From the NCBI RefSeq assembly GCF_001306135.1, contig NZ_LGKP01000021.1, forward strand, positions 62,001 through 126,000: DNA of 64,000 nt. The letters run 5' to 3'. Shown piece after piece: positions 16,871 to 50,540 of this stretch. How positions within the stretch are numbered: position 1 is the first letter of the stretch; the number at the start of each line of letters is the position of its first letter. The position numbers and the translations under genes are program-made. This DNA comes from Herpetosiphon geysericola. GTDB taxonomy: Bacteria > Chloroflexota > Chloroflexia > Chloroflexales > Herpetosiphonaceae. The notes below the pieces were generated by a model. The model was not told the origin of the DNA. It saw only the letters and a list, made by a program, of their open reading frames with translations, and did no database searches.

Positions 16871-16946
<76 letters not shown>

Positions 16947-39843: not shown

Positions 39844-40938
39844 CTACGAATTCAAGGCTTGTTCCAAGGTGGCAAACGCTGGCAGTCGACTAACATCAAT
39901 CCCAGAGCCAACCAAACCTTGGGCAACATCAGGATTGATGCCAACTAAGGCGGTTTCGGCTCCAACCAAGCTGGTAGCGGCAATCACCGCCGCCAATTCG
40001 CCAGCCATATACACATCAACTAAGGGCACACCAGTTACATCGAGCAGTACTTGGCGGGCACGTTGCTGCACCACCGCAGTAATCACCCGCTCGCGAATTG
40101 TGGCCAAACGATCGCTATCAAGTTGGCCGACCAAGGGCACAACCAAACGTCGCCCGCCAAGCGGAATAATTGGCACGCCCAACTCGCGAATAACTGCCGC
40201 CTGTTGCTGGTTGGCTTCCAACAGTTGGGCTTGTTCGGTAGCGCGTTGCTTCAATTCAGCCAAGGTATTTTGCAAGGTTGCAGTGCGCTCGGCAACGGTT
40301 TGTTCAAGGCTGGATTGCAGCAACTCTAGCTCGGTTTGGCGGGTGCGGGCACTACTCAGCGCGGTTGATAAGGCGCTGCCATAGCTTGATAACACCATCC
40401 CCAGCACCAAAGCGACTGCCATATAGCCACCAATAATCCCCCCATAATTTTTATCCATCGGTTTGGCAAAACCAGTGATCTGGGGCACAAAGGCCTCGGC
40501 CAGGGCAGTTGCAATTAAGCCTAAGAGACCAACACCAATCATCACAAAGGTCAATTTGCGGCCACTTAGCAAGCTTGCCAAAGCCATGGGCACAGCCAAG
40601 CCAAAAATAATTGCGCCACTATCGGCCAAGCCTGTGCCAAGCAACATAATTAATAAAAAGAACGATAAGCCAAAAACACTGCCAAAAAGCGCCAGCTTAA
40701 AATAATTGCGCCGCAGCAGTAACAACGCCCCTAGGAAAATCATAATTGCCGAGCCAATGGCAATCGCGATCCCAATTGATTGAGCGGTGGTGACTGGAGC
40801 AAGAAAAGGCACAACTAAAGCCCCAGTGCTGGCCAGAAACGAACCTAAGAGAATACCCTGCATAATTTGGGCTTGTTGCAATTGAATGGGGTCGGAATAG
40901 TTAAGCGAATGAAGCCATTGCTGAAAAAAACGTTTCAC
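39844..40938 (-). CDS. Membrane-anchored RsbR-like STAS protein
   Basis: 364 aa from GTG 40938 (GAGGAG 6 nt upstream); the longer frame to 41040 has no ribosome site. Residues about 20-205 have five to six membrane helices, 210-250 a coiled coil (LELLQSSLEQTVAERTATLQ), and 255-364 an RsbR/stressosome-type STAS domain (VLLDVTGVPLVDV). In RsbR the two phosphorylated Thr are in VDT and AQT; the equivalent places here read VDV and AQG, so both are lost. It would act as a membrane sensor with an unphosphorylatable output. It is upstream of the epimerase. Confidence 0.85.
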   Translation of the reverse strand: MKRFFQQWLHSLNYSDPIQLQQAQIMQGILLGSFLASTGALVVPFLAPVTTAQSIGIAIAIGSAIMIFLGALLLLRRNYFKLALFGSVFGLSFFLLIMLLGTGLADSGAIIFGLAVPMALASLLSGRKLTFVMIGVGLLGLIATALAEAFVPQITGFAKPMDKNYGGIIGGYMAVALVLGMVLSSYGSALSTALSSARTRQTELELLQSSLEQTVAERTATLQNTLAELKQRATEQAQLLEANQQQAAVIRELGVPIIPLGGRRLVVPLVGQLDSDRLATIRERVITAVVQQRARQVLLDVTGVPLVDVYMAGELAAVIAATSLVGAETALVGINPDVAQGLVGSGIDVSRLPAFATLEQALNS

Positions 40939-41106
40939 GGGTGGCTCCTCAGGGTGTGGGATTGTAGGTATGAGTTCTAGCGCTATTGTACCACCTTCGT
41001 TTACCCTCTTATTCAACTTTAGGTTACAGCTTGCTACCATTTGCTACTATGAAAAAGCCAAGCCCATGAACTGAGCTTGGCTGAAGAGCGATTTTGAGTT
41101 AGCGGT

Positions 41107-42486
41107 TTAGACTAGGCGTTCGCGAATGTAGACGGCTAGTTCGTTGATTGGAATCCGCACTTGGCTCATGGTGTCGCGGTCGCGCACAGTCACTGTGTCG
41201 GTTAGGCTGGGATCATCGCCCCGGCCCAAGGTGTCAAAGTCGACGGTGACGCAGAACGGCGTACCAACTTCGTCGTGACGGCGATAGCCCTTGCCGATGT
41301 TGCCAGTATCTTCGTAGAAAATGCGGCCAATGCCGGTTGCCATCAAGAGATTCTTCACAGCTTTGGCTTTTTCGACGATCTCTGGCTTGTTGCGAGCCAA
41401 TGGCAACACCGCAACCTTGATTGGCGCTAAATGCGGCTTGAGCTTCAAGACAATGCGTTCTGAGCCGTTTTCCAAGCTTTCCTTGGTATAGGCTTCGGTC
41501 AAAACCGCCAAAACCCCGCGATCAACCCCTGCCGAAGGCTCGATGACAAATGGCACCAGCGGCTTTTGGGTTTCTGGGTGCGGAATCGTCAGCTTGGCAG
41601 TGCTATCTTCGTTGGGATCGACATTTGCCGATAAGCCAAAATCTGCTTGGCTACGGGTATGCGAGCCAAGGTCAAAGTCAGTCCGATTGGCAATCCCCTC
41701 TAATTCTTCCAAGCCATGTGGGAATTTATACAGAATATCGACGCAGGCTTTGGCATAGTGAGCCAATTCATCACCAGCTTGATGATAGGCTTGCAGATTT
41801 TCGCTGAGCAAGCCTTGATCACGCCACCATTGCAAACGAGCTTCGACCCATTGGCTATGCCATTGATCGTCGGTGCCTGGCTGCACGAAGAATTCAAGCT
41901 CCATTTGCTCAAATTCACGCACGCGGAAGATAAAGTTGCGGGGCGTGATTTCGTTGCGAAATGCCTTGCCAATTTGGGCAATCCCAAAAGGCAAACGCCG
42001 TGCAGTCGAATCAACCACATTTTTGAAGTTGGTAAAGATGCCTTGGGCAGTTTCAGGCCGCAAATAGGCAAACGAGCCTTCTTCGGCAACTGGCCCGACG
42101 GCAGTTTTGAACATCAAATTGAAAGGCCGTGGCTCGGTCAAATCGGTTGAGCCACATTTTTCACATTTGTTATCTTTGAGTTGGTCGGCGCGCCAACGGC
42201 TTTTACAATTGCGACAATCGACCATTGGATCGGTAAAGGTTGCTTCGTGGCCAGAGTGGCGCAGCACCAAGCGATGGGTCAAAATCGACGCATCGAGGCC
42301 TTCCACATCGTCGCGTTCATAGACCATGGCTCGCCACCACGCGGCTTTGAGGTTATTTTTGAGTTCAACCCCCAACGGGCCGTAATCGTAGGTTCCTTGC
42401 AACCCGCCATAAATATCCGAGCCAGGAAAAATAAAGCCCCGCCGCTTGCATAATGAAACCAATTCATCCATCGTTGTTGCTGGCAT
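41107..42486 (-). CDS. glyQS: Glycyl-tRNA synthetase (alpha2 type)
   Basis: 459 aa from ATG 42486 (GGAGG about 9 nt upstream); frame open to 42507. Class II motifs: [26 protein letters not shown] at the start, motif 2 ([29 protein letters not shown]), and motif 3 ([14 protein letters not shown]). The zinc module is CRNC ... CEKC. It lies under a T-box leader, so it is induced when uncharged tRNA-Gly accumulates. A microrepeat block with a 13-bp inverted repeat lies between leader and gene. Confidence 0.96.
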
Positions 42487-42541
42487 ACAAACCTCCATGA
42501 AAAGCAAAAGTCAAAGGGCAAAAATCAAAATGACGATCCAA

Positions 42542-42584
42542 GTCAAAAGGCAAAACCAATTTTTAGATTACTTTGCCTTTTGAC
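42542..42584 (-). repeat. Inverted repeat in the glyQS leader
   Basis: GTCAAAAGGCAAA and its exact complement TTTGCCTTTTGAC are 17 nt apart. Flanking 'gtcaaagggcaaaaatcaaaa' copies belong to the same microrepeat. It lies between the T-box terminator and the ribosome site. Confidence 0.7.
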
Positions 42585-42604
42585 TTCTGATTTCTGCCTT
42601 TTAA

Positions 42605-42860
42605 AACGGTCATCCCCAGGCAACGCTATTGCTAGCACTGCCTGGGGACGAAGAAAAAACGCTTCGCGGTTCCACCCCAGTTCCTTGGTTCTGCACCAAG
42701 GCACCTTTGAGATCTATTGTAATTGGCTCCCCGTCGCCATTCTGCTGGTTTAGGCGTGTGGGCTTGCACTATCCCCACATCGCTGCACGCTAAGTTCCAG
42801 CCTACTTCTACGGTTCATTGCCAATAGGCATCATGTTGTTGGGGCTAACTCTAGCATAGC
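42605..42860 (-). promoter_or_regulatory. T-box riboswitch of glyQS (specifier GGC, Gly)
   Basis: On the minus strand Stem I is closed by CCGT/ACGG and GCTGG/CCAGC. The specifier loop reads AGAAGTAG on the 5' side and AGAATGGCG on the 3' side, with GGC at 42738-42736. A stem III (CCTTGG-tgcagaa-CCAAGG) precedes the antiterminator: CTGGGG-TGGAACC-GCGAAG...CTTCG-T-CCCCAG, whose bulge (42674-42668) binds the tRNA CCA end. The alternative terminator is CCCCAGGCA (42622-42614 region) with TGCCTGGGG. The U-run (TTTT) starts 7 nt after that stem, so termination may be weak. Confidence 0.9.
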
Positions 42861-42896
42861 TGCCAGAATGTCTATTCAGCCCAACGACTGATTTAC

Positions 42897-43817
42897 TTAG
42901 GCGCTAAACTCGACTTCGGCTGCATCAGCGATTTTTGGGCGCTGAGCTGCTTGATCATATTTAACGCTGCGGTCGTTACTTACTTGGGTATAAATTTGCG
43001 TTGTTGAAATACTTGCATGGCCAAGTAACTCTTGCACTTCGCGCAAATCCCGGCCCCGATTGAGCATATGGGTTGCGAACGAGTGGCGCAAGGTATGAGG
43101 GGTTAAATCGCTCAGGCCTAAGCGTTCGGCGTAGCCCTTCAAGATCAACCAAAAGCCTTGGCGGGTAAGCCGCTTGCCCCGATGATTGAGAAACAAGGCG
43201 GGGTCGCCGCCGTTGCGGCTAATCTGGCCACGCGCCATATCAAGATATTCTTCCAAGGCGGTGCTTGGGCTGCCAGCAATCGGCAAACTGCGCTCCTTAT
43301 TGGCCTTGCCCAAGCAGCGAATCTGATGGCTATTCAGATCAACATCTTGAACATCGAGCGCAACCAACTCGCTGACGCGCATGCCAGTGGCATACAACAC
43401 TTCGAGCATGGCCTTATCGCGCAGGCCTTCGGGGCCGCTGGTCGTGAGGGGCAATTCAAGCAATTCGTCAACTTGCGCGACCGTAATCGCTTTGGGCAAG
43501 AAACGATCAACCTTGGGCGAATCCAAGTTTTCGGTTGGATTCGTGGCAATAATATGTTGGCCTTGCAGGTATTCAAAAAACGATTTAATTGCAGCAGTAC
43601 GACGTGCGATCGTGGAGGTTGCGTAGCGCTTTTCTTTGAGAAAGAGCAAGAACGCCAACAGGTCATCGCGGGAGACGCTGCTCCAGCTGCCTGCGTTACG
43701 TTCGACCATAAAAGTAACAAATTGGTCAAGGTCGGTTCGATAGGCGGCAATGGTGTTACCGGTTAAACCGCGCTCAACCGTTAAATAGGCTAAAAACTGT
43801 TCTAGCTGCTGCTGCAT
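42897..43817 (-). CDS. Xer-type tyrosine recombinase
   Basis: 306 aa from ATG 43817 (GGAGG 8 nt upstream). Residues 1-90 are the SAM-like core-binding domain (YLTVERGLTGNTIAAYRTDLDQF). The catalytic half has the Arg in GMRVSELVALD, His-Leu-Arg (HTLRHSFATHML), and GHASISTTQIYT with the nucleophile Tyr. Length and full set of active residues fit XerC/XerD, which resolve chromosome dimers at dif. No partner Xer gene or mobile element is nearby, so the chromosomal role is more likely than a phage integrase. Confidence 0.92.
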   Translation of the reverse strand: MQQQLEQFLAYLTVERGLTGNTIAAYRTDLDQFVTFMVERNAGSWSSVSRDDLLAFLLFLKEKRYATSTIARRTAAIKSFFEYLQGQHIIATNPTENLDSPKVDRFLPKAITVAQVDELLELPLTTSGPEGLRDKAMLEVLYATGMRVSELVALDVQDVDLNSHQIRCLGKANKERSLPIAGSPSTALEEYLDMARGQISRNGGDPALFLNHRGKRLTRQGFWLILKGYAERLGLSDLTPHTLRHSFATHMLNRGRDLREVQELLGHASISTTQIYTQVSNDRSVKYDQAAQRPKIADAAEVEFSA

Positions 43818-43891
43818 GAGCACCCTCCAACGTCGGGATATGCGTTTCCAAAATTCCCCGCAGCGCCTATGGTAGCACCAAGAATTGCTTA

Positions 43892-47269: not shown

Positions 47270-48859
47270 TTAGCCCAGATCAACTTTCACGCCATATTGC
47301 GCAAAGCGTTGCAATAATTCGGGATCAAACAATTCTGGTTTGATGTGAATATCGATCTCGCGTAATTTTGGCAGTTCTAGCCAGCCTTCGATCCATGGAA
47401 TTTGGGCTGGCTCAAGGTTGTAGCCAAGCATAATGCTTTCGAGCTTGGTCAATTGATTCAGCCATTCAGGAATTACATGGTTTGGCCCGATTCTGAGATA
47501 TAAACTCCGCAGTTGCGACAGCTCGCGAATACTGGCAGGAAATGGCTCATCACTTGATAACCCAAATGATAGATGTTTGAGTTTAGTAAGCGTTGGCAAA
47601 ATGCGTTCCAAGCTCGCTATGGGAATATCATTACCATGAAGATAAAGTTCCTCAAGCTGCTGGAGCTGGCCCAACCTTGGATCAAGATCGGTCAACGCAC
47701 AATCATCAATCGAAAGCTCGCGCAGCTGCTGCAATTCATGCAACCATGCTGGTAACTCACCGAGTCGATGATTACTCAGCCTTAATTCTTCCAGTCTATG
47801 CAAGCTGCGGATGCCATCTAAGCGATGCTCACGGCTGCAATATAAGGTATTCATATGCAGTTTTCGCAAACTATAGTTAGGCTGGGCTGGCGGCAGAATA
47901 TGATCAATCCCAGTGCTGACAAGATTCAAGGTGTGCAAGTGGGGCAATTCTAAAACCCAGCCGGGCAACTCGCGAAAGCCTTCGCCAAATAAGTGTAGTT
48001 CTTCAAGCTGGTGCAATTGGCGAATTGATTCAGGAACTGTGGATTCAGTGATGACTAGCTCAAGGGTTTTGAGGTTTGGTGGCAACGTTGGCGCATCAAC
48101 ATCACGACATTTGAGTTTTTCAAGCGATTCCCATGTGTGCCAGACTTGGCTTATTTCACGAAAATCGCCGTGACTTTCCAAATACGCCAGTTGTGGTAAT
48201 TCCATGAGCCACGTTGGTACAGGCATGTTGCTATGAAAGTTCAACCTGCGCAAATCAGCCAACTGCCGGAACCATTCGGGATAAACTATTAATTCATCGT
48301 AATTAGTCCATAAATCAAGCGCTTCGAGCGTGGTCAGCGTGCCAATTAAATGCTCATTGGGGATGTTTTGGAGCGCATAGGTTAAGTGTTTAAGCTCGAG
48401 GCCCGTAAACCAGGCAGGTATCTCAGTTATAGTTAAACCACTAATATTGAGCACTCGTAATTTTGGCAGGTTGCCTACCCAGCGAGGAATTTCGCTCAGC
48501 TCGGTAGAGCTAAGATCAAGCGTGTGTAATTGTTGGAGTAATGCTAACTCTGCTGGGAGTTGGGTTACTGATAATTCACCGATATGCAGTTCTTCGAGAT
48601 TTGATAACTGTCCAATCCATGGCTCTAATACTTCAATTTCATCGTTATAGCTAAGATCCAATCTGCGTAACTTGGTTAGTTTGGCAAGTTCAGGTGGAAG
48701 TTGCTGCAAACGATTCATTGATAGGTCTAAGTGTTCAAGATGGGTTAACTCGCCAATTGTTTCTGGTAGCATGGTAATTTTGAGAGAGGAAAGATCGAGG
48801 GTTGGTTCACGGGTTTGGGCATTGTGGGCAATCCGCGCCCGACAAAGTTGCTCGTTCAT
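47270..48859 (-). CDS. Leucine-rich-repeat protein, first of a tandem pair
   Basis: 529 aa with no signal peptide or membrane helix. About twenty LRR units of roughly 23 residues (pattern LxxLxxLDLSxNxLxxLPxxxxxL) run from residue 20 to the end, e.g. HLEHLDLSMNRLQQLP and LRRLDLSYN. It starts and ends like its paralogue (MNEQLCRARIAHNAQ, and DPELLQRF...GVKVDLG). AAGGAG and a GTAGAAG spacer precede the ATG. Probably a protein-binding scaffold; partner unknown. No kinase, GTPase (ROC) or E3 domain is attached. Confidence 0.85.
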   Translation of the reverse strand: MNEQLCRARIAHNAQTREPTLDLSSLKITMLPETIGELTHLEHLDLSMNRLQQLPPELAKLTKLRRLDLSYNDEIEVLEPWIGQLSNLEELHIGELSVTQLPAELALLQQLHTLDLSSTELSEIPRWVGNLPKLRVLNISGLTITEIPAWFTGLELKHLTYALQNIPNEHLIGTLTTLEALDLWTNYDELIVYPEWFRQLADLRRLNFHSNMPVPTWLMELPQLAYLESHGDFREISQVWHTWESLEKLKCRDVDAPTLPPNLKTLELVITESTVPESIRQLHQLEELHLFGEGFRELPGWVLELPHLHTLNLVSTGIDHILPPAQPNYSLRKLHMNTLYCSREHRLDGIRSLHRLEELRLSNHRLGELPAWLHELQQLRELSIDDCALTDLDPRLGQLQQLEELYLHGNDIPIASLERILPTLTKLKHLSFGLSSDEPFPASIRELSQLRSLYLRIGPNHVIPEWLNQLTKLESIMLGYNLEPAQIPWIEGWLELPKLREIDIHIKPELFDPELLQRFAQYGVKVDLG

Positions 48860-48950: not shown

Positions 48951-50540
48951 TTAGCCTAGATCAACTTTCACGCCGCGTTGCTCAAAACGTTGCAATAATT
49001 CGGGATCAATAGGATATGGGTCATTAAGCCTTATTTGTAACTCCTTAAGTTTCGGTAGCTCAAGCCATGCTTCCAAGGGCAATGGATGATCAAGCTCTGG
49101 TGCAGAGATCCATAGAATTTCAAGGTGCTTCAATTGATTCAGCCATTCAGGCATTACATGGGTTGCCCAGATTCCAATCTCCAAACTACGTAGTTGATGC
49201 AGCTGGCAAATACTACTCGGAAATTGGTCATTACCCGATAAATGGAGTGATAGATGTTTAAGTTGGATTAACTGTGACAATACATAATCTAAACGTGTTA
49301 TTGGAATATAGTTATCTGAGACATGAAGCGCTTCAAGCTGCTGGAGCTGGCCCAACCTTGGATCAAGATCAGTCAACGCGCAATCATCAATCGAAAGCTC
49401 GCGCAGCTGCTGCAATTCGTGCAGCCATGACGGTAGTTGTTCTAAGGTATGCCCACCCAAACTTAATTTTTCTAGCCTATGCAAGCTGCGTATGCCATCT
49501 AAGGTATGGTGGTGGCTACAGAATAGACTATGCATCATGAGTTTTCGCAGGCAATGGTTGGGCTGGACTGGCGGCAGAATGTGATCAATCCTCGTACTGA
49601 CAATATCTAAGGTATGCAAGTTGGGCAATTCTAAAACCCAGCCAGGCAACTCGTGGAACCCTTCGCCAGATAACTGTAGCTCTTCAAGGTGGCGCAATGA
49701 GCGAATTGCTTCAGGAAAGGTCTCTTGCTTGATCATTAGCTCTAAGGTTTTGAGATTTGGAGGAAAAGCTGGAGCACTAATATGACCGCACTTGAGCTGC
49801 TCAAGCGATTCCCAAGCATGCCAGACTTGGCTAATTTCGCTAAAGTCGCCATAGCTTTCCAAATATGCTAGTCGAGGTAATTCGATTAACCATGTTGGCA
49901 CAAGCGTTTGACTCTGATAACAGAGCCAGCGTAAATTATGCATCTGCCTAAGCCAGCTTGGAAAAGCCGTAGGTTTACGATGATCATATTGTAGATCAAG
50001 CTCTTCGAGCATGGTCATGGAGTCAATCATATGCTCATTGGAGATACCTCTTGGATAATAGACCAAATGTTTAATTGGTAACTCGCTTAACCACGCTGGA
50101 AATGTGGTCAATTTTTCTAATCCATCAATATCGAGCATATACAGCGTTGGCAGATCGAGCAATTCGCGTGGCAATGCTTCAAAACCATCAAGATAGAGAT
50201 TCAATTTTTGCAACCGTGGTAATCGCGTTAGAACAGTGGGAATGCCCGTGGTTGGGGTTGCCCGAATATGCAATTCTTCGAGGCTGGTCAATTGATCAAG
50301 CCATTCTGGAATGGTGTCGAGGTTGAAAAAACTCAGATCTAAGCTGCGCAACTTCGTCAGGTTGGCAAATTCAGATGGTAACTGCCGCCAGTAATTATAG
50401 CGAACATCTAATACTTCAAGATGGGTTAATTCGCCAATTGTTTCTGGTAGGCTGGTCAGGTCAAGATGGGAAAGATCGAGGCTTGGCTCACGGGTCTGGG
50501 CATTGTGGGCAATCCGCGCCCGACATAGTTGCTCGTTCAT
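48951..50540 (-). CDS. Leucine-rich-repeat protein, second of a tandem pair
   Basis: 529 aa, the same length as its neighbour and clearly paralogous, with LRR units throughout (LEVLDVRYNYWRQLP, LRSLDLSFFNLDTIP). Conservation is patchy: the first 19 residues, a central HELQQLRELSIDDCALTDL stretch and the last 15 are nearly identical, while other units diverge strongly. The ribosome site and spacer are identical (AAGGAGTAGAAG). Only 91 nt separate it from the downstream copy. It begins right after a 15-bp hairpin. Confidence 0.85.
   Translation of the reverse strand: MNEQLCRARIAHNAQTREPSLDLSHLDLTSLPETIGELTHLEVLDVRYNYWRQLPSEFANLTKLRSLDLSFFNLDTIPEWLDQLTSLEELHIRATPTTGIPTVLTRLPRLQKLNLYLDGFEALPRELLDLPTLYMLDIDGLEKLTTFPAWLSELPIKHLVYYPRGISNEHMIDSMTMLEELDLQYDHRKPTAFPSWLRQMHNLRWLCYQSQTLVPTWLIELPRLAYLESYGDFSEISQVWHAWESLEQLKCGHISAPAFPPNLKTLELMIKQETFPEAIRSLRHLEELQLSGEGFHELPGWVLELPNLHTLDIVSTRIDHILPPVQPNHCLRKLMMHSLFCSHHHTLDGIRSLHRLEKLSLGGHTLEQLPSWLHELQQLRELSIDDCALTDLDPRLGQLQQLEALHVSDNYIPITRLDYVLSQLIQLKHLSLHLSGNDQFPSSICQLHQLRSLEIGIWATHVMPEWLNQLKHLEILWISAPELDHPLPLEAWLELPKLKELQIRLNDPYPIDPELLQRFEQRGVKVDLG

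Follow-up and report, generated by a model that had tools for sequence, protein, structure and literature searches.

A predicted transcriptional glycine T-box riboswitch in the leader of the single-chain glycyl-tRNA synthetase gene of Herpetosiphon geysericola

The window analyzed here, a 64,000-nt stretch of the Herpetosiphon geysericola genome, carries on its minus strand a structured leader upstream of a glycyl-tRNA synthetase gene, raising the question of whether this leader is a genuine glycine T-box, by which mode it would control the gene behind it and how unusual it is in the Chloroflexota. A preliminary description had named its core parts (a specifier loop with GGC, stem III, an antiterminator with the bulge TGGAACC and a mutually exclusive, predicted terminator), all of which are present on the minus strand (Table 1). 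The Rfam T-box model (RF00230) aligns to the leader over model positions 1-219 of 219 with 89.8 bits, the E value being 3e-20 for a search space of 601 bases and 7.2e-20 genome-wide. This score lies 3.2 bits short of the gathering score of the model (93 bits), which is an annotation threshold rather than a structural feature, and a default whole-window Rfam search at 93 bits does not report the glyS leader. One visible reason for the low score is a gap in the alignment, where the stem II region holds a single base against 40 model columns; stem II is naturally missing in glycine T-boxes, according to the available part of PMC7583486. In each of the six genomes searched within the genus, the glyS leader stays below 93 bits (82.9 to 91.8), and the fold of the 281-nt leader is more stable than 200 of 200 dinucleotide shuffles (z = -3.77). 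Taken literally, the check proposed in the preliminary description, a T-box model hit above threshold, speaks against its reading; the E value and the comparative evidence outweigh this shortfall, and the leader is a member of the RF00230 T-box family, assigned on structural features despite its sub-gathering score.

Matches to NF003211 and TIGR00389 identify the gene behind the leader as a single-chain glyS, with no glyQ/glyS pair, and the label glyQS used for it earlier is therefore replaced. Its protein is 99% identical to the GlyRS of Herpetosiphon llansteffanensis and H. giganteus. The tRNA-Gly(GCC) gene that had been placed in the same window is indeed found there, with an anticodon complementary to the GGC specifier. 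Among the 48 tRNA matches in the genome, all typed by ARAGORN except one (L216, in which nothing was found), tRNA-Gly genes are represented by two GCC, one UCC and one CCC copies; the four found all end in U73-CCA, and U73 fits the bulge A of UGGAACC. The proposal of a glycine T-box upstream of a glycyl-tRNA synthetase gene is thus borne out by the family match and by the fit of both specifier and bulge base to the tRNA-Gly(GCC) of this genome.

At the foot of stem I, the Rfam columns of the K-turn (GA motif) are occupied by AUGAA and GGAGC, a correspondence in matching columns only. Stem III is flanked by the purine-string motif (RRRxG ... AA) known for T-boxes from the portion of PMC7583486 consulted. 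In the antiterminator, A1 comprises six pairs, and A2, which is closed by a G-U wobble, ends in an 8-nt loop. Calculated fold energies are -37.5 kcal/mol for the unconstrained hairpin state versus -27.4 kcal/mol with the antiterminator forced, a difference of 10.1 kcal/mol. The U-run had previously been described as lying 7 nt from the terminator stem; the gap is in fact 3 nt, because the stem extends four pairs past GGGG (UCGU/AUGA).

Table 1. Features of the glyS leader, its gene, its predicted ligand and its upstream neighbour in the window
Feature	Position	Strand	Basis
T-box leader core	42641..42827	-	RF00230 match, model 1-219
Stem I: GA/K-turn columns at its foot, specifier loop, distal loop	42723..42824	-	Rfam alignment; ends from sequence
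Specifier GGC (Gly), pairs with anticodon GCC	42736..42738	-	Rfam column register; 24/24 parsed leaders
Purine string AGGTG (42706-42702), stem III (42701-42683) and AA (42682-42681)	42683..42706	-	Exact RRRxG - stem III - AA pattern
Antiterminator: A1 CTGGGG/CCCCAG, A2 GCGAAG/CTTCGT, 7-nt bulge TGGAACC (42674-42668)	42642..42680	-	Pairing, A2 covariation
Competing hairpin (predicted terminator), 19 pairs	42610..42651	-	5' arm = 3' strands of A2 and A1
TTTT run, 3 nt beyond extended stem	42603..42606	-	Sequence
Heptamer-repeat element, hairpin to ribosome site	42500..42602	-	Inverted and direct repeats
Shine-Dalgarno-like GGAGG	42492..42496	-	Sequence
glyS, single-chain glycine--tRNA ligase, 459 aa	41107..42486	-	NF003211 595.4 bits (cut-off 312), TIGR00389 468.6 bits (cut-off 243.3)
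tRNA-Gly(GCC), discriminator U73, predicted ligand	16871..16946	-	ARAGORN; 3' end CTCCA
xerC/xerD-type tyrosine recombinase gene, directly upstream, conserved neighbour	42897..43823	-	NF001399 332.9 bits (cut-off 279)

The near group comprises 41 genomes, this one among them; GlyRS was found in 40, and its locus was examined in 30 of those 40. After exclusion of one locus with just 82 nt upstream (L050), 29 loci with 420 nt upstream remained, own included. The leader is found in 24 of these 29, one of them (L062) with CGGAACC in the bulge, and its pattern was not seen in the 420 nt upstream of the other five (L046, L049, L058, L059 and L067). The GGC specifier, the bulge A and all five A2 pairs are conserved in 24 of 24 leaders, as are all six A1 pairs bar one pair in L066; since the search expression demanded A1 and the CG/CGT of A2, the conservation of these elements is partly built in. 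The inner two positions of A2, which were left free in the search, occur in six combinations that are paired in every leader, and re-dealing the partners 5000 times never equaled the observed pairing, in a comparison that does not control for relatedness. The closing pair of A2 is G-U in 23 leaders and A-U in one. In L065 and L066, CCGGGG/CCCCGR replaces CTGGGG/CCCCAG in A1, and in L065 the 3' arm of the competing hairpin changes along with it (TCGCCCGG), so that, as read from the predicted pairings, the two alternative structures change in concert.

The purine-string motif lies at stem III or within 2 nt of it in 21 of the 24 leaders under a simple rule that clearly misparses some stems. A competing hairpin of at least eight unbroken pairs is returned for 23 leaders, and one of only six for L066, by a rule that reports the best pairing with no shuffle control. 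Farther afield, 80 named GlyRS loci were collected, three of which were dropped for having less than 250 nt upstream; among the remaining 77, the T-box core was not found upstream in 71, and the six that carry it comprise five Herpetosiphonaceae and one Meiothermus.

By analogy with the T-box family, this leader would bind tRNA, sense its charge and terminate transcription accordingly. During transcription, stem I would read the anticodon of tRNA-Gly(GCC) through the GGC specifier. The UCCA end of an uncharged tRNA would then pair with UGGA in the bulge, stabilizing the antiterminator and allowing the polymerase to enter glyS. With a glycine-charged tRNA, the antiterminator would be left unheld, its 3' strands would join the 19-bp hairpin followed by the short U-run, and transcription would stop.

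The mode of control, called unclear in the preliminary description, is less so than stated there. Against a transcriptional mode, the T-run of the window is short, and a consensus scan of 42480-43000 returned no terminator and no sigma-70 promoter. Four of the first 10 bases past the stem are T in the window, the lowest count of the 24 leaders (tied with L052), compared with four to five across the genus and up to nine in the others, and five of the 24 leaders have no TTTT within 12 bases after the stem. The spacing of the hairpin and the T-runs of the relatives nevertheless point to transcription attenuation. Across the 24 leaders, 23-139 nt separate the end of the hairpin from the start codon, and in the window GGAGG lies 113 nt beyond the hairpin, so that the hairpin would not cover a ribosome site placed at the usual spacing. 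Furthermore, of the 18 leaders from outside the genus, 13 carry a run of three or more T, and 10 a run of four or more, beginning 0-1 nt past the parsed stem. With the hairpin clear of the expected ribosome site and T-runs in the relatives, transcription attenuation is the best reading and, as predicted from hairpin position and T-runs, the most likely mode of control; we consider it very probable that a glycine T-box riboswitch of class I (transcriptional) controls glyS.

A translational T-box, in which the hairpin or a downstream fold would mask the ribosome site, could account for the window's short T-run, 3 nt off the stem, and for the empty terminator scan. It is nonetheless improbable, given the 113 nt that separate hairpin and GGAGG, the 23-139 nt between hairpin and start codon across the 24 leaders, which would leave a ribosome site at its usual spacing outside the hairpin, and the TTTT that begins 0-1 nt past the stem in 10 of the 18 leaders from beyond the genus. 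Stem I is also long, as in transcriptional T-boxes (PMC7778990, in the part available).

Decay of the riboswitch, whereby efficient termination would have been lost in the genus and the leader would persist as a relic or be constitutive, is less probable still. The T-runs of the genus are among the weakest of the set and the repeats inserted between the hairpin and glyS vary by species, as such decay might leave them, but all six genus members retain the purine string, the specifier, the bulge and an A2 with the G-U pair, and their parsed hairpins, at 19-20 pairs, exceed those of most relatives. A chance match, or another terminator-type leader, could appeal to the score under the curated threshold but has a negligible likelihood in view of the E value, the conservation and covariation, and the agreement of specifier, gene and tRNA on glycine.

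Between the hairpin of this putative transcriptional T-box and the ribosome site lies the further hairpin mentioned in the preliminary description. It is present, and we judge it to lie outside the riboswitch. Heptamer-like units (AAAAGTC/AAAAGGC), repeated in inverted arrangement, make up the element, and an 18-base pattern of this heptamer occurs 68 times in the genome with at most one mismatch, compared with zero occurrences of the reversed-pattern control. The same heptamer type occupies the site before glyS in L041, and a different heptamer, GGATGAA, is found there instead in L039, L040, L042 and L043; the GGATGAA-type pattern has 262 matches in the genome, overlaps in tandem arrays being counted separately. 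A role for this hairpin as a riboswitch part was therefore dropped, as it is made of genome-dispersed heptamers and a different heptamer takes their place in some other Herpetosiphon genomes. The site before glyS looks like a place where heptamer repeats come and go. A literature search yielded no paper on heptamer repeats of Herpetosiphon among the matches listed.

Bacillus glycyl-tRNA synthetase is a two-chain enzyme, and the staphylococcal glycine T-box precedes a single-chain GlyRS. As far as the available text of PMC7583486 describes them, Bacillus-type glyQ/glyQS leaders resemble the Herpetosiphon leader in carrying a GGC specifier for tRNA-Gly(GCC), in lacking a stem II domain, in the stem III purine string, in an A1/A2 antiterminator with a 7-nt bulge and in a terminator that recruits the 3' strands of both helices. 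Unlike them, the Herpetosiphon leader serves a single-chain GlyRS in the Chloroflexota, its short U-run lies 3 nt past the stem and a repeat element precedes its ribosome site. The staphylococcal glycine T-box is reported to have an extra stem Sa in its discriminator domain (PMC7583486, same portion), where A2 of the window instead ends in its 8-nt loop.

The suggestion that a T-box would be unusual in the Chloroflexota did not hold. T-box matches at E 0.001 or better occur in 187 of 201 Chloroflexota genomes (matches that were not individually checked) and in every one of the 41 near-group genomes, this one counted, and the sections of PMC3766115 available to us list the Chloroflexi as one of the few T-box-bearing groups and include Herpetosiphon aurantiacus in the set of Chloroflexi genomes. 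The Chloroflexi T-boxes of such comparative surveys belong to the same family and phylum as the glyS leader (PMC3766115, same sections), which is thus of an ordinary, already described kind. Only 114 of the 201 genomes have a match above the gathering cut-off, and the six glyS leaders of the genus all fall below it, indicating that the RF00230 gathering cut-off under-calls T-boxes in this phylum.

The H. geysericola genome itself has eight T-boxes, two of which pass the cut-off, upstream of glyS, trpS, proS, ileS, leuS, valS, serS and thrS; the ileS assignment comes from a fragment truncated by the end of its locus (532.7 versus a cut-off of 621.4). Visual reading of the specifiers in the Rfam register gives a codon that suits the enzyme at six of these eight genes; at serS and thrS the expected codon (UCC and ACC, respectively) is one base off. 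Other small genes intervene between the T-box and valS, serS or thrS, and control of thrS, which lies about 0.5 kb away past a small gene, is less sure than that of the other synthetase genes. By eye, the T-boxes of these three loci (L001, L007 and L008) are each followed by at least one gene for an unknown membrane-protein-like product. We rejected the reading of these T-boxes as leaders of unknown membrane proteins only, as valS, serS and thrS lie behind (L218-L220); the small membrane-like proteins are possibly under T-box control as well.

The origin of the enzyme behind the glyS leader may differ from that of the leader. In a GlyRS tree of 53 rows, the Herpetosiphonaceae enzyme (459-460 aa) adjoins Elusimicrobiota (94/91) within a wider clade (98/94) to which Melainabacteria and an Alphaproteobacteria MAG belong as well, and the 22 rows from the order's other families stand apart from it (100/99). 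Twenty of these 22 are 530-545 aa long, the Herpetosiphonaceae enzyme being some 80 residues shorter. In a second tree of 47 rows with insert columns removed, which omitted L054, L082, L143 and three duplicate Herpetosiphonaceae records, forcing the 29 rows of the order together costs 29.8 log units, with a p-AU of 0.02 that is suggestive only, as the clade test was set up after inspection of the tree. The named loci in both trees were chosen by hand from the 80 available, 23 for the 53-row tree and 18 for the 47-row tree. The T-box leader and the xer neighbour, whose motif precedes GlyRS at 24 of the 30 loci, are common to Herpetosiphonaceae and its sister families, whereas the GlyRS grouping is not. 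Replacement of the enzyme in place from another lineage, the nearest here being Elusimicrobiota, with T-box and xer kept, would explain this combination and is a tentative, rather doubtful possibility; old paralogy, row selection or an error in the tree may instead lie behind the odd grouping. If true, the exchange would mean that a riboswitch was kept while its enzyme was replaced.

Immediately 3' of glyS, the ORF at 39844-41040 has a C-terminal part that is YtvA/STAS-like at scores under the curated cut-offs. Elsewhere in the window, two neighbouring minus-strand ORFs of 529 aa each (47270-48859 and 48951-50540) are leucine-rich-repeat-like by eye and resemble copies of one another.
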